In this document: piece by piece, positions 29,373 through 61,591 of the stretch
Layout: the number at the start of each line of letters is the position of its first letter
Position numbering within the stretch: the stretch's first letter is position 1
Program-made: the position numbers and the translations under genes
The notes under the pieces: generated by a model
The model's database searches: none
The model's input: the letters and a program-made list of their open reading frames with translations, nothing else
Told to the model about the DNA's origin: nothing
Assembly: GCA_902764875.1 (NCBI GenBank)
Contig: CACWXP010000011.1
Coordinates: 32,485-96,484, forward strand
Source of the DNA: an uncultured Eubacteriales bacterium
GTDB lineage: Bacteria; Bacillota; Clostridia; Christensenellales; Aristaeellaceae
DNA length: 64,000 nt
Reading direction: 5' to 3'

Positions 29373-29645
29373 TTATCCGGCTTGGCGCATTTCCATCAGG
29401 GCTACGCGGGTTAAATAGTACTTTCTTTTTGATTCGGTTCCCTGCCTGAGGAGGCCTTCGTTAACCATGCGCTGGAGATACCCGGCGGTGGTCGAAGTGG
29501 ACATGAGACCGGCGGCTTCTCCGATTTCACGGACACTGGGCTGGCGGCCCGTTTCGTTTGAGAAGGAGAGAATGTAGCGGAGAATGAGTTCTCTCGTCTG
29601 GGTGTTTCTCGGTGAGCGACTGTACATGCTTTTCATCCTTTCCAA
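29373..29645 (-). CDS. Stand-alone LexA-type winged-helix DNA-binding protein
   Basis: The 90-residue protein resembles only the LexA N-terminal domain: RELILRYILSFSNETGRQPSVREIGEAAGL (in pieces, the LexA pattern G-x-x-P-S-V-R-E-I) and STTAGYLQRMVNEGLL, the recognition region. The S24 peptidase half is absent, so self-cleavage is impossible. Its stop lies 2 bp after the XRE-S24 gene on the same transcript, suggesting the two proteins share one regulatory system. Confidence 0.8.
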   Translation of the reverse strand: MERMKSMYSRSPRNTQTRELILRYILSFSNETGRQPSVREIGEAAGLMSTSTTAGYLQRMVNEGLLRQGTESKRKYYLTRVALMEMRQAG

Positions 29646-29647
29646 TC

Positions 29648-30439
29648 TTATATGTCATTCAATTCATCTTCACTGGCAAACAATTCATCATCAATGATTC
29701 CGAGCACCTTTCCGATGCAACGAACTTCGTCGCCTTCTCCGAAATGCATAACGGGGTATCTGGGGTTCAGACTGTGGAGGCCGTCGCGCTGGTATACCTT
29801 GATGTATCCGGCATCGCCGCAGACGAAGATCGCAACGTCGCCGGGGCGAATTTTTGCCCCATGCTGGACAAGGACACGGTCGCCGTCATGGAACTCGGGC
29901 TCCATGCTGTCTCCGCTGACGCGAATAATTTCATCGGCAAGGATGGTCAACGGCGTTTCCTCAATCCAAACCTTTTCTCCGCAGCTTTCCCCGAGAAAGG
30001 CGCAGGGGCCGGCACAGGCAGAAAGATCGCTCATGAACACAGAGATCAGCTTCCTCTTTTTTGCCGGATTCAGATCGGGTTTTTGAAGCTCAATCAGGGT
30101 ATCCATCTGGCGGAGGATGATTTTCCGGTGGTAATCCGTGAGACTGGCGTATCTCCTCCGAAACTCATCGGGGACACTGAGCTCCTCCTTGTCGTTCGGA
30201 ATCCCGAAAAACTCATTGAGAGGAATATCCAGCGCATCACAGATTACGGGAACGCTGCTGATATCCGGACGGCTGCGGCCTGCCTCCCACGCGCCGACAG
30301 CATTCTTCCGGACGGAGACGAGGGCGCCGAGTTCTTCCTGGCTCATTTTTTTGCGGCGGCGATTCTCCCTGATCAGCTCAGCGAAGGGAACGCCGGCAGC
30401 ATTCAGCATATCAGTGTTCTTCAGTTCCTGTCTTCCCAT
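29648..30439 (-). CDS. XRE-family repressor with S24 (LexA-like) peptidase domain
   Basis: Residues 20-75 form an XRE helix-turn-helix (RENRRRKKMSQEELGALVSV, NAVGAWEAGRSRPD). Residues 165-245 are an S24 peptidase: VSGDSMEPEF carries the Ser nucleophile and GYIKVYQR the Lys. A possible Ala-Gly cleavage site sits in SACAGPC near residue 140. This is the build of phage CI/ImmA-type and SOS-like repressors that cut themselves on RecA activation. The promoter overlaps GGGAAC half-sites, consistent with autoregulation. Confidence 0.9.
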   Translation of the reverse strand: MGRQELKNTDMLNAAGVPFAELIRENRRRKKMSQEELGALVSVRKNAVGAWEAGRSRPDISSVPVICDALDIPLNEFFGIPNDKEELSVPDEFRRRYASLTDYHRKIILRQMDTLIELQKPDLNPAKKRKLISVFMSDLSACAGPCAFLGESCGEKVWIEETPLTILADEIIRVSGDSMEPEFHDGDRVLVQHGAKIRPGDVAIFVCGDAGYIKVYQRDGLHSLNPRYPVMHFGEGDEVRCIGKVLGIIDDELFASEDELNDI

Positions 30440-30463
30440 AACGCATCACTCCTTTGCGGGAAC

Positions 30464-30493
30464 ATTATAGCACAATTGTATTGTCGATGTAAA
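30464..30493 (-). promoter_or_regulatory. Promoter of the XRE-S24 gene
   Basis: Minus-strand TTTACA (30488-30493) and TATAAT (30464-30469) with 18-bp spacing and an extended TGc before the -10. A GGGAACA half-site abuts the -10. Confidence 0.65.
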
Positions 30494-30494
30494 G

Positions 30495-30520
30495 GGGAAC
30501 AAAATAATTTTTTTGTTCCC
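30495..30520. promoter_or_regulatory. Inverted repeat operator between the XRE-S24 and argF genes
   Basis: Arms GGGAACAAAA and TTTTGTTCCC are perfect over 10 bases with a 6-base A/T centre. It abuts the -35 box of the XRE-S24 promoter, and a further GGGAACA copy lies by its -10. It is probably the repressor's own operator. Confidence 0.6.
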
Positions 30521-30555
30521 TTCTGTGCTTTCTTTGTCCACAGGGTTTCTCCCGA

Positions 30556-30584
30556 TTGACCCGGCACCCTCTAGCCCCTATAAT
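30556..30584 (+). promoter_or_regulatory. Promoter of argF
   Basis: TTGACC (30556-30561) and TATAAT (30579-30584) with 17-bp spacing. Confidence 0.75.
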
Positions 30585-40034: not shown

Positions 40035-42125
40035 ATGTCATTTGAAACCATTCTGAAAATGACCCTGGCTACGGCCGGTTACGTACTGGTAACCGGCTTG
40101 CTGTGGCTTTTCTGGATGAAGAAGAAAAAACATAACAGAAAGGATCAGATTCTGGTCGGCCTCGTTTTCGGTGCCTGTGCCGTTGCTGCCAATCACTTCG
40201 GTATCGTCCAGGGAAGTTTTCTGATTCTGAACGTTCGTGATATCGGCCCCCTTTCCGCAGGCTTGTTTTTCAGCCCGGTCAGCGGTATTATCGCCGGCCT
40301 GATCGGCGGTATTGAACGCTATCTTGCTGCGGAGATCTGGGGCATCGGTTCTTTTACCAAAGTTGCCTGCAGCCTGAGCACCTGCCTGGCCGGTTTTTTT
40401 GCCGCGTTTCTGAACAAAAAAATTCACCAGGGAAAACGCCCGTCCATGCCTCTGTCCTTCTTTCTCGGGGCTGTGACGGAAGTTTTCCATATGTACGCCG
40501 TGATTTTTACTAACCGGGACAACATCAGTATAGCCTATTACATTGTCCGCGGCGTTGCTTTACCCATGATTCTGTTTACCGCCTTCGGGCTTGCTTTCTG
40601 CTCCGGAGTGATCATGCGCCTTTCCCACGAAACATCCGATCTGGGTTTGCGCGTTCCGGATGAAAAAATACCGATCACGGTTCTCTTTCAGCGAGCGTTA
40701 CTTGTAGTTACAATCGGACTGTTCGTTTTCAACTTCATTGTATCCTACAACACAAATACCCGAATGGTCTCCGAAAGCGCAGAAAGTGAACTTCAGTCCA
40801 TTTGTCTGCAAAAATCATATATATTCGAATCCACACACGATCTTGAAGCATTGAAAAAGAACCTGAATGAGTCGGATGAAACCAATATATCGGCCATGCT
40901 GGTCAACATCGATACCGGCGAAATCGTTGCCGGCGAGGACTCCCTTACCGACTACGTTGTTTTTGATGCAAACGACCGGGAAGTTCTGCGTAATTGCGCA
41001 GATAAAGAAGCCGTTCAAATCAAATTTGAAAGCGTCGGCGATATTGAATTTCTATGCTGTGCCAGCAGCATTTCCGGACAATACTACCTGGTTTGCCTGC
41101 GCAAAATGTTCTCTGTGTTCTTAATCCGGGATTCCCAGATGTATGAGAATACGCTTTCGGATATTCTGCTGTTCACGGTCATGTACATGCTGGTTGTGAT
41201 GCTGGCGGACCGGCTGGTGGTTCGAAATCTTCACCGGGTGAACAAATCCCTGCATAAAATCACCGGCGGCGACCTGAAAGAAGTCGTATGGGTTCACGCA
41301 TGCAAGGAATTCACCGATTTGAGCGAAGATATCAACAGTACCGTCACCACCCTGCGCGGATATATTGACGAAGCAGAACAACGCTTGAAGAACGAACTGA
41401 AGCTGGCCGCTACCATTCAGGAGGCTTCTCTTCCGCAGAATTTTGATCTTCCGGAAAAAAACATCGATATTCATGCGCTGATGACCCCTGCGAAAGAAGT
41501 CGGCGGCGATTTCTACGACTTCTTCTATGTCGGAGTTGACTGCCTTTGTCTGGTAATCGCCGACGTCAGCGGCAAGGGCGTTCCGGCCTCTCTTTTCATG
41601 ATGCGCGCAAAAACCGCTATCAAAAACTACACACGCAGCGGTATGAGCCCTGCCGAAGTGCTTTCCAAGGTGAACCACACGCTTTGCGAAGGCAACGACG
41701 CGGAAATGTTCGTAACCGTCTGGCTCGGTATTCTGAACCTGAAAACAGGACAGATGCAGTGCGCCAACGCCGGGCATGAATACCCCGTACTGATGCGGGC
41801 GGACGGTAACTATGAGCTGCTGAAAGACCGGCATGGACTGGTGCTGGCCGCCATGAATGGCATCAAATTCCCTGAATACGAAATTCAGTTGAATCCCGGC
41901 GACCGGATCTTCGTATACACCGACGGCGTTCCTGAGGCCATCAACGAAAAAGAGGAAGCATACGGAACAGACCGTCTGATCAGCCGGCTGAACCGCGTTA
42001 AAAACTATCCGCAGGATTATATCCTGAAAGAAATCCTGCAGGATATCCGGAACTTCGCCGGATCCGCGGACCAGTTTGATGATATTACAATGATGGGACT
42101 GACCTATAAGGACACAGTCGAATGA
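40035..42125 (+). CDS. LytS-type membrane sensor with PP2C/SpoIIE phosphatase domain
   Basis: The 696-residue protein has an N-terminal 5TM-LYT receptor domain (about 1-200: NVRDIGPLSAGLFFSPVSG in pieces, IAGLIGGIERYL, SLSTCLAGFFAAF), a further helix near 215-240, an extracytoplasmic sensor region, a helix near 370-390, a HAMP-like linker, and a C-terminal SpoIIE phosphatase (MTPAKEVGGDFYDFF, VSGKGVPASLFMM, VYTDGVPEA). It probably dephosphorylates an anti-anti-sigma factor or similar target on sensing an envelope or sugar cue. It starts 29 bp after the GH67 stop and is likely co-transcribed. It ends 1 bp from the convergent cassette gene. Confidence 0.92.
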   Translation: MSFETILKMTLATAGYVLVTGLLWLFWMKKKKHNRKDQILVGLVFGACAVAANHFGIVQGSFLILNVRDIGPLSAGLFFSPVSGIIAGLIGGIERYLAAEIWGIGSFTKVACSLSTCLAGFFAAFLNKKIHQGKRPSMPLSFFLGAVTEVFHMYAVIFTNRDNISIAYYIVRGVALPMILFTAFGLAFCSGVIMRLSHETSDLGLRVPDEKIPITVLFQRALLVVTIGLFVFNFIVSYNTNTRMVSESAESELQSICLQKSYIFESTHDLEALKKNLNESDETNISAMLVNIDTGEIVAGEDSLTDYVVFDANDREVLRNCADKEAVQIKFESVGDIEFLCCASSISGQYYLVCLRKMFSVFLIRDSQMYENTLSDILLFTVMYMLVVMLADRLVVRNLHRVNKSLHKITGGDLKEVVWVHACKEFTDLSEDINSTVTTLRGYIDEAEQRLKNELKLAATIQEASLPQNFDLPEKNIDIHALMTPAKEVGGDFYDFFYVGVDCLCLVIADVSGKGVPASLFMMRAKTAIKNYTRSGMSPAEVLSKVNHTLCEGNDAEMFVTVWLGILNLKTGQMQCANAGHEYPVLMRADGNYELLKDRHGLVLAAMNGIKFPEYEIQLNPGDRIFVYTDGVPEAINEKEEAYGTDRLISRLNRVKNYPQDYILKEILQDIRNFAGSADQFDDITMMGLTYKDTVE

Positions 42126-42126
42126 G

Positions 42127-42837
42127 TTATGCTTTTAATGCGTCCTTATACCAGGTCAGCAGCATCAGCACGTCACAGTTACTCATCCCTTCCAGGGTCG
42201 TGACGCCGTTCTCGTCCGTCACTTTTCGCGGCTCTTCTATCAACTCAAGGTCCTGTATAATCAGGTGGTCTTTCAGCGTGATTTTGAGCTCGTTCAGAAT
42301 TTTATTGATCATCTTCACCTTATGCCCGGCAAAAATCCCCTCTGGACGCTTCTCAGTGTAGGTCTCTAATAACAGGTAGATATCGTTGAACACCTGCATA
42401 ATATACGCCAGGTCATGATGATCCCGAACGTACCATTTCTTTTCTTCCGGAGACTTCTGTTCCTGGTTCTGATCCGCCGGAGAAAGCTGCTTCCCCTTTT
42501 CTTTAAGGTACTGAACTCCATTGGAAACCCGCCGCTGCATCGCGGCGGGATCCTTTTTCAGCTCGGCTATTTCCTTCTTCTTCGCGCAGCGCATCAGAAA
42601 AGGATCGCGGATTTTCCGCGGAACCGTGTTCGGCACCAGCGCAAAGTAGTTTTCGTTCGGATACATCCGGTCTGCAAAAAGCGGAACAACCTTTCCGATG
42701 GTCCTGCGCCTGACTCTGGAATTCTGAGTCTCGCTGGAATACTCACGGTCCAGTTCCATTTGGACCGTCTTCTCGTTGCGGATGACAATCTTCCCCTGCT
42801 CAAAGGGAATGGGTACCGTGATATCTTTCAGATACAT
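42127..42837 (-). CDS. Unknown protein, last gene of the terminase-like cassette
   Basis: The 236-residue protein starts MYLKDITVPIPFEQGKIVIR and continues with RRRTIGKVVPLF and RMYPNENYFALVP. That N-terminal style (IGK followed by MYPNE-Y) reminds me of N-terminal regions of IS1634/IS4-type transposases, but no DDE catalytic part is present. The second half is helical: HDLAYIMQVFNDIYLLLETY and KMINKILNELKITLKDHL. No function can be given. It begins 4 bp after the second small YGKP gene and ends 1 bp from the convergent phosphatase gene. Confidence 0.6.
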   Translation of the reverse strand: MYLKDITVPIPFEQGKIVIRNEKTVQMELDREYSSETQNSRVRRRTIGKVVPLFADRMYPNENYFALVPNTVPRKIRDPFLMRCAKKKEIAELKKDPAAMQRRVSNGVQYLKEKGKQLSPADQNQEQKSPEEKKWYVRDHHDLAYIMQVFNDIYLLLETYTEKRPEGIFAGHKVKMINKILNELKITLKDHLIIQDLELIEEPRKVTDENGVTTLEGMSNCDVLMLLTWYKDALKA

Positions 42838-42841
42838 GGGT

Positions 42842-43306
42842 TCATTTCTCCTCTCCGCTGTTTCGAGTGTCGGATTTCGAGTGTCCGTTTACTACATCCG
42901 AGGCCGGCCCTTTTTCAGTCGGATCGTTGATTTCATTGGCTTCGTCCGCGGTTTTTCGAGTGTTTTTTCCCGAGTGTTCGAGTGTTTCGCCATGCAGATT
43001 CCGCATCCTTGCGGCAAAATCTGCAATCCTTTCGCTGGCCTTCTCCACCTCGTGCTCGCTGCTCTGGATCTGCAGCATCTCGTCCGGCTTCCCGTATACC
43101 CGGTCCAGAATGATGTCCACCAGCGCCAGCTTGGCCGCATCGGGTACATTTCTGTCCTTCAGGATTTCTTCCATCCGGACTGCTGCGCGAAAGGCCAGTC
43201 CGCGCAGCTTGTCCAGAGCACCCTTCGCGTCCATGTCTGGTACGGGAGTTTCTAGCTCGCTGTCCCGGTCAAGGATGAGGTGATCGCTGGGAATATCATG
43301 AATCAT
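42842..43306 (-). CDS. Terminase small-subunit-like YGKP protein, paralogue 2
   Basis: The 154-residue protein has a helical core RGLAFRAAVRMEEILKDRNV, then AAKLALVDIILDRVYGKPDE, and a hydrophilic acidic tail. The core aligns with the 105-residue protein at 44576-44893 (VDMILNR/VDIILDR plus YGKP). The A-a-x-x-I-L-D-R-x-Y-G-K-P pattern is common in phage small terminase and DUF5681-type proteins. Five CGAGTGT copies lie within this gene. It follows the TerL-like gene by 26 bp. Confidence 0.6.
   Translation of the reverse strand: MIHDIPSDHLILDRDSELETPVPDMDAKGALDKLRGLAFRAAVRMEEILKDRNVPDAAKLALVDIILDRVYGKPDEMLQIQSSEHEVEKASERIADFAARMRNLHGETLEHSGKNTRKTADEANEINDPTEKGPASDVVNGHSKSDTRNSGEEK
42864..42985. 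repeat. Five CGAGTGT repeats inside the second YGKP gene
   Basis: Copies start at 42864, 42878, 42957, 42971 and 42979. The first pair and the third-fourth pair share a 14-bp period. Phage packaging sites often lie inside the small terminase gene, so these could be recognition sites; chance codon use is also possible. Confidence 0.4.
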
Positions 43307-43332
43307 AGCTTGTTCCTCCTGTCTTTTCTATA

Positions 43333-44583
43333 TTACATATACCACCTGGGATCCCAGTACCGACAGCAGCAGGCGGCGCTGTCCGGAGCGTCGTCATGCT
43401 CGGCATGCTCTGTATAATCCATGATCTGGTTGATGTAGTCCGGATCTGTGCCGCGAAGGAAGATAATGTTCGGCCACCACTTTTTCATATACGTGGAAAT
43501 CTTGATAAACTTGTTCTGATTCTCCGAATAGGATTTTGCCCATTTGCCCCTGTGCCGGATTTCCTTGCAAAGAAAACCTTTGTCGCCGTTATCTTCGCAA
43601 TGCAAAGGCCAGCACAGAAGCCGATCCGCTTCCATGATGCATTCTTCAAGCACGGCATCCACAGGTTTGTGCCAAATCCGACCATAAAGATAGATTTTGT
43701 TACCGGTCCGTTTCGCGCAGGTGAAGGCCGTAAAATCGCTCCCGCCGTAGGCTGCGTCGATGTGAGAAATGCCATTCCGCAGTAGTTTCGGATCGTCTGT
43801 GAAAACCGGTGGCGTATCGAAAAAGGCTTCTTCCGATGCAATGTGTTTCAGCTCATAATTCGCTGCAAACAGTGAAGGCGTCATGGACTGCCGGATCTCA
43901 TCCAGCTTCTCGGTTGAAATCAGTCCCGTCTGGTAACAGTCGTACCGGTGGATGTTCGGCATCTTGCTGAACACGTCGTCCTTGTGCCAGGGCGTTCCCA
44001 GGTTGATAATCCTTCCTTCCCTGTTCCGGATGTTCTGCAGCTCATCATACTGCAGCTTGGTACGTTCTCTCTCGGCCCTGCTGATTCGGTCTGAAAGGTT
44101 GCAAATGTCGTCGGTAATCACGTAATAGGCGTGTTTGCCGGTGATACTGGCTCGCAGACCGATGCCCAGCAGCTGATGGGCGCCCATGGGCGATGTCCAG
44201 AGATTCGTCGAAATATGATCCGTACCTTCCGAAACAATTTGCAGCGGTTTGCCGTGCATAAAATTGCAAAAATCCTTCATGAGACCCGTTCGAAGGATCT
44301 TCGCCACCATCCCCAGCATCTCGCTTACGTCTTTGTCCGTTTTTCGGATAAAGATAATGTTCCTTTTCGGGTTCATCAGAAGGATCAGGGCAATTGCCAC
44401 AGCCAGGCAGGAGCTTTTGTAGCTCCCCCGGTGTGCCTGCAGCGTATAGTCTCCTTCACCGAAGACCATTTCATGGATCCATTCCCCGTGCAAAGGCGTC
44501 AGGTCTTTAAACCCGACTTCCTTGCCGACTTCATCCAGGTGGCTGAAGGCATCCTCCAGCATCTCCAGTTTCTGCTCATTCAT
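43333..44583 (-). CDS. Phage terminase large-subunit-like ATPase-nuclease
   Basis: The 416-residue protein has all parts of a TerL motor. The ATPase has a variant Walker A AHRGSYKSS (50-58), Walker B YYVITDDI (153-160) and a coupling motif LGTPWHKDD (195-203). The RNase H-like nuclease has HIDAAYGGSD (274-283), HCEDNGDKG (328-336) and HDDAPDSAA (396-404), which give the acidic metal-binding residues. It appears intact and is not eroded. It overlaps the first small YGKP gene by 8 bp. No portal, capsid, tail or integrase gene is near, so it is not part of an ordinary prophage in this window. Confidence 0.85.
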   Translation of the reverse strand: MNEQKLEMLEDAFSHLDEVGKEVGFKDLTPLHGEWIHEMVFGEGDYTLQAHRGSYKSSCLAVAIALILLMNPKRNIIFIRKTDKDVSEMLGMVAKILRTGLMKDFCNFMHGKPLQIVSEGTDHISTNLWTSPMGAHQLLGIGLRASITGKHAYYVITDDICNLSDRISRAERERTKLQYDELQNIRNREGRIINLGTPWHKDDVFSKMPNIHRYDCYQTGLISTEKLDEIRQSMTPSLFAANYELKHIASEEAFFDTPPVFTDDPKLLRNGISHIDAAYGGSDFTAFTCAKRTGNKIYLYGRIWHKPVDAVLEECIMEADRLLCWPLHCEDNGDKGFLCKEIRHRGKWAKSYSENQNKFIKISTYMKKWWPNIIFLRGTDPDYINQIMDYTEHAEHDDAPDSAACCCRYWDPRWYM

Positions 44584-44893
44584 GGTTCAATGCTCCTCTC
44601 TTCATTTTGATTCTCTCAACCAAAGCCTGAATGCTGACGCCGGATTCTTCCGGAGTTCTCTCTTCCGCTTCAAGCTTCAGAACACCTTCAGGTTTTCCGT
44701 ATGTCCGGTTCAGAATCATGTCAATCACCTGAATTTGCGCATTCAGCGGCGCCTTGGGGTTATCAAGGACTCTTTCGATTACATCGACAGCCAGTGGTGC
44801 AAGGCTTAATATCTTCCTTTGGGGATCCTTCTCCTCATAAGAATTCGCCGCTTCCATGGCGATAATGTTGGGTCCGGCTGGAGTGTGTTTCAT
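44576..44893 (-). CDS. Terminase small-subunit-like YGKP protein, paralogue 1
   Basis: The 105-residue protein has the core LAPLAVDVIERVLDNPKAPL, IQVIDMILNRTYGKPEGVL and a helical end SIQALVERIKMKRGALNHE. It is first in the cassette and overlaps the TerL-like gene by 8 bp, the usual TerS-TerL order. GGAAAGGATGATCTTGC precedes its ATG. The terminator at 44928-44962 lies just upstream, so expression probably depends on read-through or antitermination. Confidence 0.65.
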   Translation of the reverse strand: MKHTPAGPNIIAMEAANSYEEKDPQRKILSLAPLAVDVIERVLDNPKAPLNAQIQVIDMILNRTYGKPEGVLKLEAEERTPEESGVSIQALVERIKMKRGALNHE

Positions 44894-44927: not shown

Positions 44928-44962
44928 AAAAAAACCGGTCCGGAGTTTTCTCCGAATCGGTT
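44928..44962 (-). terminator. Intrinsic terminator in the leader of the terminase-like cassette
   Basis: AACCGaTtCGGAG-AAAA-CTCCGgaCCGGTT followed by seven T residues in the minus transcript. It lies 35 bp before the first cassette gene and downstream of the leader promoter, so it either ends a separate small RNA or acts as an attenuator. Confidence 0.85.
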
Positions 44963-45035
44963 GATTCTCGCTGTCTTGATTTTAGTACATCATATTGATA
45001 TCATCCATGAACAATAATATTCAACAGTCATTGAC

Positions 45036-45056
45036 GTGTCATAGGAGTGTCATAGG
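45036..45056. repeat. GTGTCATAGG tandem pair, 11-bp period
   Basis: Two copies of GTGTCATAGG start 11 bp apart, overlapping the end of the 27-codon frame. The GTG-T/A-CA core resembles the GTGACA of the larger array at 45241. Confidence 0.7.
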
Positions 45057-45133
45057 CGTGATTCTTTCCCGTTGCCTTTCAAATCCTGTTCGACAACATA
45101 TCTGATATCATATATCGAAACGGCATTCAACAT
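45050..45133 (-). CDS. Possible 27-residue leader peptide
   Basis: A short frame from ATG 45133 with GGGAG five bases ahead begins MLNAVSIYDIRYVVE and ends KGNGKESRL. It has coding-like character but I have no homologue to support it. Its stop falls in the GTGTCATAGG pair. Confidence 0.3.
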   Translation of the reverse strand: MLNAVSIYDIRYVVEQDLKGNGKESRL

Positions 45134-45599: not shown

Positions 45600-46670
45600 C
45601 TAACCTTTCGCGATAGAAACAGCGCCGGCCTTTTTTGCCTTGGCTTTATCACGTGCACTGAGAATCACGCTCTGAAGGAGAATGAAAACACCCAGCAAGG
45701 CACCGCTGGCCATATCCTGCCACCAGGAGTCATTCAGCTTGCTCATGCCAATGATCTTCTGGATCGTAGCCAGGATCATCGTTCCGAAGAAGGTGCCGAT
45801 CACATTGCCGACGCCGCCGGTCAGCAGCGTTCCGCCGATTATCGAAGCGGCAATTGCGTCCATTTCACTTCTCATGGCGACACTCGCATTTCCCGTCGGT
45901 TTATGCATGAGGAATACAAAGCCCGCAATACCACTCAAAAGTCCGCTGATAACATAGCTCATGAAACGGGTCCGCTTCACATTGATACCGAGCATCAGAG
46001 CGCTTTGCTGATTTCCGCCGAGGGCGTAGATATTCCGTCCGAGCTTTATATACCGGAGCATCAGGAAGCTAAGCACAACCACCAGCAGCGCAACCACAGC
46101 GCCAATCTCAAGCTTTGCAGGGATTGTGTTTCCGTTCTGTGCAATATATCCAAGGAACGGGATTTCGATCTTATTACTGCGGAAAGCATAGAACGCGGCA
46201 TGGGTCTGAGCAGAAACCTTCACAGGTTCCACAGAAAGCATAGTCGTAAGTCCTCTGGACAGGAACATACCGGCAAGAGTTACGATAAAGGGTTGTATCT
46301 CCAGATAACTGATAAGGAAGCCCTGGCCCACGCCGAAAGCAAGGCCAATTCCCAAAGCGAGAAGCAAGGTGACAATAATTCCCAATGCATTCTGCGGTGC
46401 CGAATTGTTCAGGAAGATTGAACAAGCCATGACGGTCAGGCTGATGACACCGCCGACACTGATATTAATGCCGCCACCAATCATTACGATGGACAAGGCG
46501 CATGAAATAATAATCAGGTATGCATTATCATTCAGGAGGTCAAAGAACATTTGGAACTTTTCAAATCCCTGGACACCGGTGACGATGGCCGCAATATACA
46601 TGACCGCGAAAATACAGACGGCGATCGTTGTTAGCAGCTGGGTATTGTTCAAAGGCTCTCTGCGTTTCAT
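45600..46670 (-). CDS. Sugar ABC transporter permease, YjfF type
   Basis: The 356-residue protein has about nine to ten membrane helices and the BPD_transp_2 signatures IGGGINISVGGVISL, IQPFIVTLAGMFLSRGL and AIAASIIGGTLLTGGVGNVIG (in pieces). It resembles YjfF, one half of the galactofuranose-type importer channel. I chose ATG 46670 with GAGGTGATC; the earlier GTG is within the ribosome site. It overlaps nothing and starts 3 bp inside the end region of the upstream permease. Confidence 0.93.
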   Translation of the reverse strand: MKRREPLNNTQLLTTIAVCIFAVMYIAAIVTGVQGFEKFQMFFDLLNDNAYLIIISCALSIVMIGGGINISVGGVISLTVMACSIFLNNSAPQNALGIIVTLLLALGIGLAFGVGQGFLISYLEIQPFIVTLAGMFLSRGLTTMLSVEPVKVSAQTHAAFYAFRSNKIEIPFLGYIAQNGNTIPAKLEIGAVVALLVVVLSFLMLRYIKLGRNIYALGGNQQSALMLGINVKRTRFMSYVISGLLSGIAGFVFLMHKPTGNASVAMRSEMDAIAASIIGGTLLTGGVGNVIGTFFGTMILATIQKIIGMSKLNDSWWQDMASGALLGVFILLQSVILSARDKAKAKKAGAVSIAKG

Positions 46671-46672
46671 GA

Positions 46673-47752
46673 TCACCTCACCCCCTTTGCGGTACTGAGC
46701 TGCCTGCCGGATTTCATTTTATTGGAGAGAGCGGCAATCTTGCTCTTAATCACCGGGGAGCCGGCAACCACGATGACGATAATCACAATCGCCTTATAGG
46801 CCTTTACATTCACGGTTGCAACGTTCATTGCATAAAGCGTTGTGGTCAGCATCTGGATAATATAAGCACCCATAATACTGCCGGCGATTCTGAATTTGCC
46901 GCCGCCCAGATTGTTTCCGCCGATGGCAACAGCAAGAATTGCGTCCATTTCAACATCAACGAGCAGGGTTTTATGGCTTAATTGGGCCATACGGCAAACG
47001 CCGATCATGGAAGCGACTGCTACACAGACTCCCAGCAAGACAAAACTCAACAGCTTGATAACTGTAGGATTGATGCCGTTCAACCGGGCCGCACCCTGAT
47101 TGATACCAACCGACTGTGTATAGAGCCGGAGGTTCGTAAACCTGAAAACCAGGGACAGAATGATACCGACAAGAACAACCGCAAAGATCGGCGTAGGGAT
47201 CGGAATTCCCGGAATCGTCATACCCATTGCCCGAATAATCGGACTGTTCAGCTGGGGTGTGGCGCTGCCGGTGATCCAGTATGCAATGGAGCGTCCGCAG
47301 GAGAACAGGATCAGGGTTGCAATCATCGGTTGTATTCTGAAGACGGCAACCAATGTTCCGTTAAACATCATAAAGGCAACAGCAGCAAGTATGCAGACCA
47401 GCACACCCAAAATTACGGAACCGGCGGTGATTTCCTCACCGGACTTGAGAACCTTCACAAAGAAACTGCCTGCAATGGCTCCGACCGCCCCGACGGAAAT
47501 ATCCTGACCTCCGCAAGCCGCGGTCACCAGCGTCATACCCATGGCAATAATCGCCAGAGCGCTTGCATTATCAATAATCGTGATCAGATTACCGCTGAGT
47601 ACGCTGTTTCCGTCATTGTTCACTGCAACCTTGATAGCGAAAAAATTCGGATCGCGGATGAGGTTGAACAGAAGCAGAATCGCCAATGCGGTCAGCGGGA
47701 TCAGAAGCTGACCGAGCGCACTCTTTTTTCCGTTTTTGCTCTTCGAGTTCAT
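46673..47752 (-). CDS. Sugar ABC transporter permease, YtfT type
   Basis: The 359-residue membrane protein carries AMGMTLVTAACGGQDISVGAV (in pieces), IQPMIATLILFSCGRSIAYW (20 residues) and ILAVAIGGNNLGGGKF. It pairs with the YjfF-type permease in a heterodimeric channel. ATG 47752 has GGAGGTGAACGGTAAC ahead, and the ATPase stop lies immediately upstream. Confidence 0.93.
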   Translation of the reverse strand: MNSKSKNGKKSALGQLLIPLTALAILLLFNLIRDPNFFAIKVAVNNDGNSVLSGNLITIIDNASALAIIAMGMTLVTAACGGQDISVGAVGAIAGSFFVKVLKSGEEITAGSVILGVLVCILAAVAFMMFNGTLVAVFRIQPMIATLILFSCGRSIAYWITGSATPQLNSPIIRAMGMTIPGIPIPTPIFAVVLVGIILSLVFRFTNLRLYTQSVGINQGAARLNGINPTVIKLLSFVLLGVCVAVASMIGVCRMAQLSHKTLLVDVEMDAILAVAIGGNNLGGGKFRIAGSIMGAYIIQMLTTTLYAMNVATVNVKAYKAIVIIVIVVAGSPVIKSKIAALSNKMKSGRQLSTAKGVR

Positions 47753-58634: not shown

Positions 58635-60419
58635 ATGGCATCCCGTTTCCCCGCTCATTGGCTGGACGAGCTGCGATCCCGTTCGGACATTGTGCAGATT
58701 GTTTCCGGCTATGTTGGTCTGAAAAAGTCCGGACGAAAATATTGGGGGCTCTGTCCTTTCCATGGGGAAAAGACTGCCTCCTTCTCTGTCGACGGCGAAC
58801 AACAGCTGTATTACTGTTTCGGCTGTAAGGCCGGCGGAGATGTGATCCATTTCATTATGGACATCGAACGGTGCAGCTTTCACGAAGCCGTTGAAATCCT
58901 TGCCGACCGGGCGCACATTCCTCTTCCTGAGATGGAAAACGACGCGGACTGGGAACAGCGGCAAACCCGTCGGGAACGCCTGCTGACCGCAAATCGGGAA
59001 GCTGCTAAGTTTTATCACGAAATGCTTTTTCGGCCCGAGGGTGCTGCTTCACTGAACTATCTTCGCAAGCGGGGGCTATCCGATTCCGTGATTCGAAAAT
59101 TCGGTCTCGGTGCCGCACCGGATCAGTGGTCTGCGCTGACCGACCACCTTGTATCTGCCGGTTATACCACGGATGAACTTGTCTCCGTCGGTCTCACCAT
59201 TGTCCGTCCTCCGAAGGAACCCGGCGGAAAGCAGACCGCTTTCGACATGTTCCGCAACCGGGCGATCTTTCCGATCATTGACATGCACAAAAACGTGATC
59301 GCCTTCGGTGGCAGATCTCTCGGAAAGGAGCTCCCGAAATATATCAACACAGCCGATACCCCCGTTTACAGCAAGAGCCGGAATATCTACGCGGCCAATC
59401 TACTGAAGCAACAGCGTCATCTGGATCATGTTGTTCTTACGGAAGGTTATATGGATGTCGTCTCCCTGACCCAGTTCGGCGTTGAAGGCGCCTGTGCTTC
59501 CCTCGGAACATCGCTGACCGAGGAGCAGGCACGTCTCATCCGCCGTTTCGCCCCGGAAGTCTATCTGGCCTATGACGGTGATTCCGCCGGACAGAAAGCC
59601 ATTCTCCGAGGATTGGAGATTTTTGAAAAGGAAGGGCTTCCGGCCCGGGTTCTGGTTTTTCCGGACGGCCTGGATCCGGACGAGTTTGTCCGCAGGGACG
59701 GAGCAGAAGCCTTCTCGGCGCTTCAGACGCTGACCCCGACCGCCTATCGGCTCCGGCAGCTGAAGACATCTTTCGATCTTTCGAAGGACGAGGACAAAAT
59801 GAACTATGTCCGCAAGGCCGCCCTTGTCCTTTCCGGGCTTGATCCCGTCGGTCAGGAAACTTATCTGAAGACGCTGATGGTGGAAACCGGTTTCTCCCAC
59901 GACGTTCTGCAGCAGCAGGTTGATGAAGGCCGAGGGAAAGCCCTCGGAAACGCAGGGCTTTCAAAGCCTGCCGAGGCGCGCCGTTCTCGCGCCGCAAGAA
60001 AAAATGAAGGTTCAGTCTCCCCTGTTACCGCTGCCCAGGAAACGCTGCTCGGCCTCCTCGCAACCGGACAAATTCCGAAAGATATGGTTGAGGAAAAGGA
60101 TTTTGAGGACGACGAGTTGAAATCATTATATATGGCGCTGATCGGCGGAGCATCTCCCGCTTCGCTTCCGGATACGGCGCCGGATGATGAAACCCGGTCC
60201 CGCTATACGCGGATTCTTTTATCCCCCGCGGCGGAGAGCACGGATCAGATGATTTCCATGGCAGGCCAGTGCCTCGGCAGGATCCGTAAAGCTTCCTGCC
60301 AGAAACAGTACGATGCGCTGATGCAGAAGATGAAAACGATGGACCCGAAGGATCCTGCGATTCCCGGTATGCTTCAGGAGGCGCAGGAGCTCCGGAAAAA
60401 AATGGACAAACCGGCCTGA
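58635..60419 (+). CDS. dnaG: DNA primase
   Basis: The 594-residue enzyme makes RNA primers. The zinc-binding domain has [11 protein letters not shown] and [15 protein letters not shown]. The TOPRIM core has [28 protein letters not shown] and [14 protein letters not shown]. The C-terminal helicase-binding part is shorter and more diverged than in model species. It follows the dGTPase gene by 35 bp. Confidence 0.97.
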
Positions 60420-60460
60420 CCGATTACAGAACCGACCGAGATATAAAGGAGAGGATTCCC

Positions 60461-61591
60461 TTGTCTACCCTTTCACCCGATAGCCGTCAGAAGCGTTTGG
60501 ACGAACTTTATGAATACGGAAAGTCCAAAGGAACGCTGACGTATAAAGAAATCATGGACCGGCTGATGGAGCTGCAAATGGATTCCGACCAGCTCGACCG
60601 CGTTCTTGAAACGCTTGATGCATATGGTGTTTCCGTTGTAAACGATTCATCAGACGATACCGTCAGTATTTCCGATGATCAGGCAGCAGATGTCGCAGCA
60701 GCCACCGCGGCAGCAGATGAGTCTGCCAACGATCCGATCGATCTTTCCATTCCGGAAGGAATCAGCATTGACGACCCCGTACGTATGTATCTGAAAGAGA
60801 TCGGCAAGGTACCGCTGCTTACGGCCGAAGAGGAAATCGAGATTGCAAAGCGGCTCGAAGCCGGAGATGAAAGCGCCAAACAGAAGCTGGCCGAAGCCAA
60901 CCTGCGCCTTGTCGTTTCCATTGCGAAGCGCTATGTTGGCCGCGGTATGCTTTTTTTGGACCTGATTCAGGAAGGAAACCTGGGTCTGATCAAAGCCGTT
61001 GAAAAGTTTGACTACCGCAAAGGCTTCAAATTCTCCACCTATGCCACCTGGTGGATCCGCCAGGCGATTACACGGGCCATCGCGGACCAGGCACGAACCA
61101 TCCGGATCCCTGTACATATGGTTGAAACCATCAACAAGCTGATCCGTGTTTCCCGTCAGCTGCTGCAACAATACGGCCGGGAGCCCACACCGGAGGAAAT
61201 CGCCGCCGAAATGGGTATTTCCGAGGCGAAAGTCCGCGAAATCATCAAAATAGCGCAGGAACCTGTATCCCTGGAAACGCCCATCGGTGAAGAAGAAGAT
61301 TCCCATCTTGGCGACTTTATTCCAGACGACGACGCTCCTGCCCCTGCCGAGGCCGCATCCTTTACCCTGATGAAGGAACAGCTGATGGATGTTCTTGACA
61401 CGCTGACCCCCAGAGAGGAGAAGGTGCTCCGCCTCCGTTTCGGGCTTGACGATGGCCATCAGCGCACCCTTGAGGAAGTCGGTAAGGAATTCAACGTCAC
61501 CCGCGAGCGCATCCGCCAGATTGAAGCCAAGGCCCTGCGCAAGCTTCGCCATCCTTCCCGCAGCAAGAAGCTTCGGGATTACCTGGACTGA
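60461..61591 (+). CDS. rpoD: RNA polymerase primary sigma factor RpoD/SigA
   Basis: The 376-residue factor has region 1.1 (about 8-55), 1.2 ([18 protein letters not shown]), 2 ([20 protein letters not shown] and [20 protein letters not shown], 20 residues each), 3 and 4 ([34 protein letters not shown]). It starts at TTG 60461 with AAAGGAGAGGATTCCC ahead. It recognises the TTGACA-17-TATAAT promoters seen throughout this window. Confidence 0.98.

Follow-up and report, generated by a model that had tools for sequence, protein, structure and literature searches.

A stand-alone terminase cassette in an Aristaeellaceae genus: a possible satellite-like packaging unit

What is a set of phage DNA-packaging genes doing among the host genes of a bacterial chromosome? 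The question is raised by a 64,000-nucleotide stretch from an uncultured Eubacteriales bacterium of the family Aristaeellaceae (contig CACWXP010000011.1, positions 32,485 to 96,484; hereafter the window), in which four closely packed genes on the minus strand encode a small YGKP protein (P1), a large terminase subunit (TerL), a second YGKP protein (P3) and a protein of no assigned family (P4). Our tentative answer, to which we give a probability of about 0.42, is that this phage-derived terminase cassette has turned into a selected, satellite-like packaging unit that needs heads made in trans. What is observed is an intact TerL under selection, the YGKP pair, P4, phased repeats with a promoter-like site, and the recurrence of such cassettes between unrelated flanks. 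Among the explanations weighed below, the satellite-like module ranks as the most likely and a recent prophage remnant comes close behind; anti-phage interference and an accessory role in a gene transfer agent (GTA) are less likely.

The window TerL matches the PHROGs family phrog_38 ('terminase large subunit') with an E-value of 1.9e-67 over residues 25–411, which takes in both the ATPase and the nuclease domain, and the NCBIfam model termin_lrg_T7 with an E-value of 1.2e-19, under the model's own cut-off. Its motor and nuclease residues, which we take to have the roles usual in large terminases (Walker A, Walker B, acidic nuclease residues), are identical in all 30 rows of the genus alignment, and Walker A in all 28 rows that cover that part; the initial annotation had described the protein as intact in every motif, and so it is. 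Estimates of dN/dS by the method of Nei and Gojobori (NG86), rough because dS is near saturation, are 0.08–0.10 for the window TerL against three copies in its own genome (L034, L035 and L036; related loci are given by L numbers, genomes by G numbers and contigs by C numbers) and 0.09–0.16 within a clade of five species described below. Along the window's own branch, 44.5 synonymous and 13.5 non-synonymous changes (pN/pS 0.075) fall on the 158 codons at which the three resident copies agree with outgroup support. By these counts the window TerL is under purifying selection, as had been suspected, and does not drift neutrally; the ratio does not date the cassette's departure from a phage.

The gene packing is also as first described, with an 8-bp overlap of P1 and TerL followed by gaps of 26 and 4 bp, and all four frames are open. 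P1 and P3 are about 30% identical (E about 1e-7). Neither has a match to a small terminase subunit (TerS) or to any named family in Pfam, PHROGs or NCBIfam, and because no library names them we can only infer a TerS role. P1, which sits before TerL, is modelled by AlphaFold as three helices at low confidence (pLDDT 68). P4 has no family in the same three libraries, and 12 aligned relatives gave only weak matches of single members in Pfam and PHROGs; its AlphaFold model (pLDDT 84) found no fold match in the PDB (best E 0.53). P4 homologues are located near TerL both in phages and in stand-alone cassettes. A first impression that its N-terminus is transposase-like was unsupported by Pfam, PHROGs and the PDB fold search, and a transposon model was dropped, no acceptable terminal inverted repeats or target duplication being present around the cassette. 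Elsewhere in the same genome (L044, G000:C14, 6027-7060) a P4 gene stands alone, preceded by an array of 11-bp repeats and with no TerL alongside, which suggests that P4 may travel or act alone.

The argument for a unit rests on its recurrence. In 45 genomes of the genus, one per species, a TerL search (E of 1e-20 or better) gave 39 matches in 15 genomes, and larger stretches were examined around 37 of these, many of which lie at contig ends and were left unclassified. Eight loci in seven genomes are terminase-only with host-type flanks: the window, L066, L037, L075, L076, L077, L130 and L074, the last consisting of TerL alone. The cassette thus recurs away from prophages, and its homologues are not confined to full prophages, the distribution that the initial annotation had named as the mark of a simple remnant. 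Four further loci (L131, L068, L125 and L072) have a portal gene and no capsid gene that we could find. In three of them P4 ends close to a tRNA gene, at 75 bp (L068, Met), 36 bp (L125, Ser) and 111 bp (L072, Trp), forming mini-modules of the order portal-TerL-P1-P4 (L068 11599-11827, L125 11833-11959, L072 11345-11529); this proximity suggests tRNA integration sites, though no integrase was seen. Those of L068 and L125 also come after type I restriction-modification genes.

A clade of five species makes, on these trees and alignments, the best case for a unit with a separate history. The cassettes L037, L075, L076, L077 and L130 all have the order P1-TerL-P4, all 15 gene frames are open, and their TerL proteins form a single clade, with a Shimodaira–Hasegawa-like approximate likelihood ratio (SH-aLRT) support of 100 in a tree of 119 rows and support of 100/100 in a more careful tree of 21 rows. 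The five contexts are different: the S10 operon, SIR2/NACHT-like genes, an FtsK/SLFN-like helicase, SfsA/pilin genes and AraC/PurR genes. DNA similarity spans the three genes and stops about 30–45 bp past P4 and, on the P1 side, no more than about 25 bp ahead of the gene, the exceptions being patches in an upstream helix-turn-helix (HTH) gene in L075, L077 and L130 and one chance-like patch of 140 bp between L075 and L130. The HTH gene is divergent from the cassette in these three loci and is followed in L077 and L075 by a second, late-regulator-like gene, which in L077, where phrog_36 was tested, matches that family. By eye, two or three direct repeats of the type GGTTCC(C/T/A)CTCAAAA follow the P4 stop in all five cassettes, and GGAACC-type repeats seem dispersed among phage genes of the genus. 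A single open frame upstream of L037 covers all 19,901 bases of L315 (G000:C9:26500-46400) and would encode a repetitive protein of giant size, over 6600 residues long.

Other TerL relatives are nearer to phages. A second clade (support 98) joins L068, L125, L070, L072 and L128, in the last of which no portal was seen, to the viral contigs L214, L215 and L219; L215 reads as a phage, since TerL and P4 are accompanied there by a Phage_portal_3 protein, a lysin-like gene and tail-like genes, so this set is closer to an ordinary phage. Beyond the genus we sampled the best 80 of 133 relatives on genome contigs (79 loci) and the best 80 of at least 307 on viral contigs. Among the tabulated genome-contig loci, profiles built from the genus found no P1-TerL-P4 cassette, distant small genes being liable to escape them, and a single P1-like match beside TerL (L157). 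To judge by the genome-contig loci tabulated, the stand-alone form is known so far from a single genus. Among the literature matches listed, we found no description of terminase-only cassettes.

The window cassette itself has a more complicated ancestry. Its order, P1-TerL-P3-P4, is found again only in L066, from another species and with different flanks, where all frames are open, P3 has about 126 codons and the identities to the window are 60% (P1), 74% (TerL), 55% (P3) and 59% (P4). The fuller phage loci examined have the orders P3-P4-P1-TerL-portal, P4-P1-TerL-portal, P4-TerL-portal, P1-TerL-portal, portal-P1-TerL-P4 and portal-TerL-P1-P4, and none has that of the window, which upholds the initial view of the layout as unusual. 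The window and L066 group together in the P1 tree (92/93) and weakly in the P4 tree (81/71), a smaller P4 tree being undecided, whereas in the TerL tree the window joins L034, L035 and L036 (92/90) and L066 joins the phages L122 and L124 (97/94). Because the trees of the small genes and of TerL disagree, a mosaic is likely, in which the small genes would have a common history with L066 and TerL would have been exchanged with, or derived from, the resident phage lineage. A search for recombination tracts between the window TerL and the resident copies found no near-identical stretch, the longest identical run being 41 bp. A gene for a small cysteine-containing peptide (62% identical) lies near TerL both in the stand-alone L066 (7612-7890) and in the phage L071 (9648-9932).

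Derivation of TerL from the resident phage lineage would amount to the remnant explanation, in which the cassette is the recent leftover of a temperate phage akin to the residents, its genes still intact and its odd order possibly the result of a deletion across tandem or rearranged copies. We consider this plausible, if somewhat doubtful. The window TerL falls inside the group of resident portal-linked copies, and the genome (3.27 Mb in 67 contigs) is rich in related pieces, with 12 TerL matches, of which four are shorter than 100 bases and the others 62–100% identical, and seven portal matches, two being fragments; several contigs end inside TerL, as is expected when similar copies confuse assembly. 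The cassette, isolated as initially described within the window, is therefore no orphan in its genome. Copies adjoining portal genes are 79% (L034), 80% (L036) and 85% (L035) identical to the window TerL. The prophage that contains L034 has genes for a DNA polymerase of family A and for a large protein that bears an NrS-1 polymerase-type helix-bundle domain, besides P3, P4 and P1, a PDDEXK_2 gene read from the opposite strand, TerL, portal, a lysin of the NlpC/P60 type and a protease/scaffold-like protein; L036 has a portal and a protease-like gene beside TerL. In the nearest copy, L035, host-type genes follow the portal and the contig ends on the other side; no whole prophage is evident around this copy. 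This PDDEXK_2 gene (nuclease family transposase, Rpn-like), placed between P1 and TerL and reading in the other direction, is present not only in L034 (6448-7290) but also in L043 (6726-7601).

In L067 (G004:C25, 7182-12485) fragments of P1, TerL and portal are followed in tandem, within 5.3 kb, by P4-P1-TerL, a possible starting arrangement for such a deletion, and in L069 the packaging block comes last, followed by an S41-peptidase gene, so that a deletion could leave it behind. A remnant should also leave traces. As queries against the window we used 173 proteins, picked mechanically from ten loci of the genus that are phage or phage-like; outside the cassette they revealed no gene for portal, capsid, tail or lysis, and matched a host sigma-70 gene (60395-61585) and a CI-type repressor-like gene (Table 1). 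PHROGs was applied to the four cassette genes and 10 flanking open reading frames (ORFs), out of 54 picked window ORFs of at least 150 residues, and one of the 10 (29612-30556, plus strand) is the wrong strand of the repressor-like gene. That gene lies 12 kb to the left, beyond a run of host-type genes, and has its best match in the phage contig L122 (35% identity). It could belong to the host or be a trace of a phage; as a trace it would favour a remnant. The early statement that no portal, capsid, tail or lysis gene lies near the cassette agrees with these searches. Pieces of its relatives also lie near the cassettes L130, L076 and L072.

Table 1. Features of the cassette and its surroundings (positions in the window)
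Feature	Position	Strand	Remarks
CI/LexA-type repressor-like gene	29648-30439	-	HTH + Peptidase_S24; by domain make-up
Host gene, SpoIIE-type phosphatase	40035..42125	+	flank; convergent, end 1 base from P4 stop codon
P4, 236 aa, no family assigned	42127..42837	-	ORF call, open frame
P3, second YGKP protein, 154 aa	42842..43306	-	ORF call, open frame
TerL, large terminase ATPase-nuclease, phrog_38, T7-like, 416 aa	43333..44583	-	ORF call, PHROGs, NCBIfam
P1, 105-aa YGKP protein, putative small terminase / TerL DNA-binding partner	44576..44893	-	ORF call, open frame
Terminator-like hairpin and T-run in P1 leader	44939..44956	-	-16.2 kcal/mol; T-run 38 nt before P1 start
Sigma-70-like promoter	45014..45042	-	ATGACA - 17 nt - TATTAT; consensus match only
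Repeat array B, 11-bp direct repeats	45018..45060	-	overlaps promoter-like site; Tandem Repeats Finder, 2.3 copies at 45036-45060
Repeat array A, 11-bp direct repeats, upstream of P1	45242..45306	-	5.9 copies, GGGGAGTGACA on minus strand
Host gene, ABC transporter permease (BPD_transp_2)	45600..46676	-	flank

The lack of detected structural genes or debris extends from the window to the flanks of 13 related loci (L066, L037, L075, L076, L077, L130, L074, L131, L068, L125, L072, L128 and L073), in which the same genus phage-locus queries matched no portal, capsid or tail gene. What they did match was the small cysteine-containing peptide (L066), a lysin-end repeat within a larger ORF (L075), repressor-like gene pieces (L076, L130, L072), short stretches (L076, L073) and a host-type peptidase (L128); the L077 flank has a gene in common with the start of the phage contig L129 and a regulator-like gene. 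This lack of debris argues against a remnant, as does the recurrence of the four-gene order in L066, which comes from another species and has different neighbours. The five-species clade would be hard to obtain by independent decay. Purifying selection, too, is unexpected of a leftover, though part of the branch may have been in a phage.

The region upstream of P1 also counts in favour of a unit. Array A has the strongest lag-11 periodicity in the window, at a level reached by none of 200 shuffles, and array B is the second strongest such site; promoter-like matches number three in the stretch, against 1.3 expected in shuffles. Across related loci, the share of starts with repeats at a lag of 10 or 11 upstream is 7 of 14 for stand-alone loci, 4 of 16 for phages or contig ends and 3 of 60 for control ORFs (stand-alone versus control, Fisher p = 1.7e-4; terminase-only loci, 4 of 8, p = 0.003 versus control), where the p-values are optimistic because repeats had been seen by eye in several sequences before testing, and where the 14 starts, at positions chosen by the analyst, take in the solitary P4 gene L044 and portal-bearing loci. 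The repeat sequences are not alike from cassette to cassette. At -7 kcal/mol, leader hairpins were counted for 11 of the 14 stand-alone starts, 7 of the 16 in phages and 26 of the 60 controls (p = 0.035 for stand-alone against control), and in a shorter leader for 8 of 14 against 16 of 80 starts having a gap of at least 100 bp at a threshold of -12 (p = 0.007), or 9 of 14 versus 31 of 80 for -7 (p = 0.09); some of the starts come from tblastn coordinates, and that of L066 lies inside P1, its leader being about 100 bp short. We did not retain a leader terminator as a common feature of the cassettes, since these threshold-dependent counts are suggestive only.

A TerL requires a portal, and since the cassette has none, heads must come in trans. 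In the satellite-like reading, P1 and P3 would serve as small terminase subunits, for which the 11-bp repeats would be the binding and packaging site, or, alternatively, a late activator would bind these repeats; TerL and P1 would dock on a portal supplied by a resident prophage or by a GTA-like cluster of the genus, and DNA starting at the cassette would be packaged by its own motor into a borrowed head. All seven genomes with terminase-only loci have a portal gene; as 34 of the 45 genus genomes do so, this co-occurrence is permissive and is not evidence. A related and unlikely proposal is that of a selfish, mobile packaging-start cassette, whose repeats (as packaging site), TerS-like proteins and TerL would load the heads of any resident phage or gene-transfer particle with chromosomal DNA that starts at the cassette. 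Such a cassette would move together with neighbouring host genes (here those of sugar metabolism) by an imposed lateral transduction and homologous recombination, with no need of an integrase.

A number of observations weigh against the satellite-like reading. P1 as a putative TerS has the backing of no library match or fold. The TerL copies nearest to that of the window are in its own genome (85%), and the TerL data reject a grouping of the window with L066 (approximately unbiased test, p-AU 0.013), so that the window copy could be a recent leftover; a grouping of the window with the resident copies is rejected just barely by P1 (p-AU 0.036) and not by P4 (0.34). Phased repeats do not separate stand-alone from phage starts (p = 0.26), and they are not significant upstream of L037, L077, L130, L072, L068, L125 and L074. 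No integrase was recognised among the four cassette proteins in Pfam, PHROGs or NCBIfam, and no terminal or flanking repeats acceptable as attachment sites (att) were found at the window cassette. Searches for an empty site, in eight relatives for L037 (upstream of rpsJ) and in four close relatives for L076, found synteny breaks nearby but no site that was cleanly empty. L077 has phage-like genes beside the cassette, and for L075, L077, L072, L128, L074 and L073 one flank is shorter than 3 kb (0.1–2.9 kb to the contig end).

Neighbouring genes bear on a different function, in which the TerL and TerS-like proteins would poison the packaging, or cut the DNA, of related phages. Defence-type genes are indeed close to some loci: SIR2-STALD and a NACHT-like gene near L076, AAA_21 and a sub-threshold RloB match near L066, and type I restriction-modification genes near the portal-bearing L068 (hsdR, hsdM) and L125 (hsdM). 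The similarity of TerL to phage TerL proteins of the same genus is also what a decoy would have. The window, L037, L075, L130 and L131, however, lie among housekeeping or transport genes, and full conservation of the ATPase and nuclease suits a working motor more than a decoy, so we regard interference as quite unlikely.

A source of heads may exist in the genus. A portal homologue is found in 34 of the 45 genomes and in 12 of the 13 better ones, as a single copy in 24 of the 34, although some of these single copies (G015, G045) sit in phage-like loci. In G002 the portal belongs to a cluster with a TerL of another family (phrog_2), a head maturation protease, a major head protein and a virion structural protein, and host-type genes, including a flippase-like one (Polysacc_synt, MurJ), lie between portal and protease. 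The same cobW gene, 92–96% identical, adjoins the cluster in 7 of 13 examined loci, G002 included (L294 in G002, L295, L296, L298, L299, L301 and L302). From this conservation the portal-capsid cluster looks like a vertically inherited GTA or a defective prophage, and it is a candidate GTA of the genus. In the window's own genome, L306 (G000:C39) has head-gene matches, the portal being a C-terminal fragment only.

The cassette might then be the second terminase of a GTA system and serve this capsid-portal cluster. The wide occurrence of the portal, mostly in single copy, and its repeated position by cobW agree with this, and in G002 a cassette and the cluster lie about 115 kb apart on one contig; for such split loci there is a precedent, as part of PMC12946183 (2026) describes the Faecalibacterium GTA (FpGTA) as two operons about 125 kb apart. 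On the other side, the G002 cluster has its own phrog_2 TerL, and with TerL cassettes patchy (15 of 45 genomes) and the cluster widespread, the cassettes are not an obligate part of the GTA system. This explanation is the least probable of those considered, and we think it improbable.

If the satellite-like reading is true, packaging would be separable from head and tail genes and could spread as a unit of its own, one with fewer phage functions than the satellites compared below, and chromosomal genes beside the cassette would be packaged preferentially. According to part of PMC12946183, packaging of bacterial DNA in capsids is widespread in the human gut, mostly in families of Clostridia, and 3 of 25 GTA-like packaging events there fall in the Christensenellaceae; for bacteria related to these, the cassette would provide a path of gene flow that can be tested directly.

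Known systems share single traits with the cassette. The temperate phages of the genus (L034, L069, L122, L123) have a homologous phrog_38 TerL on the same strand and, in most cases, YGKP and P4 genes; they differ in adding a portal and, variously, protease, lysin, DNA polymerase A and tail genes, and in their gene orders. The upstream repeats recall two kinds of phage site. Part of PMC4737164 describes direct repeats that span the promoters and the start of an SPP1-type small terminase gene (the pac region), and reports little specificity of the SF6 TerS DNA-binding domain for those repeats; here, too, direct repeats lie upstream of a candidate small terminase gene, whereas binding of P1 or P3 to them is a prediction. 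For Alt of TP901-1 and Ltr of Phi13, part of PMC13123087 places four direct repeats before the late promoter that drives packaging and structural genes. The window cassette has direct repeats upstream but no regulator gene linked to it, so any activator would come from elsewhere. The repeats may be a packaging site or a late-activator site, as either role fits, and either would imply a cassette meant for use in a phage-like programme.

Among satellites, some Staphylococcus aureus pathogenicity islands (SaPIs) encode TerS, and capsid-forming phage-inducible chromosomal islands (cf-PICIs) encode TerL, TerS, portal and capsid proteins, as given in part of PMC10690885. The cassette differs from the SaPIs and other phage-inducible chromosomal islands (PICIs), and from cf-PICIs, in having a TerL without portal, capsid or integrase and with no replication gene recognised; what likens it to them is the proposed mode, in which an element's own packaging genes, here with the YGKP proteins as candidates only, would redirect packaging. 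GTAs, finally, have structural clusters common to a lineage, whereas the cassette is patchy and has no structural gene; FpGTA and RcGTA resemble it in that phage-derived packaging genes are kept by the host, possibly at separate loci.

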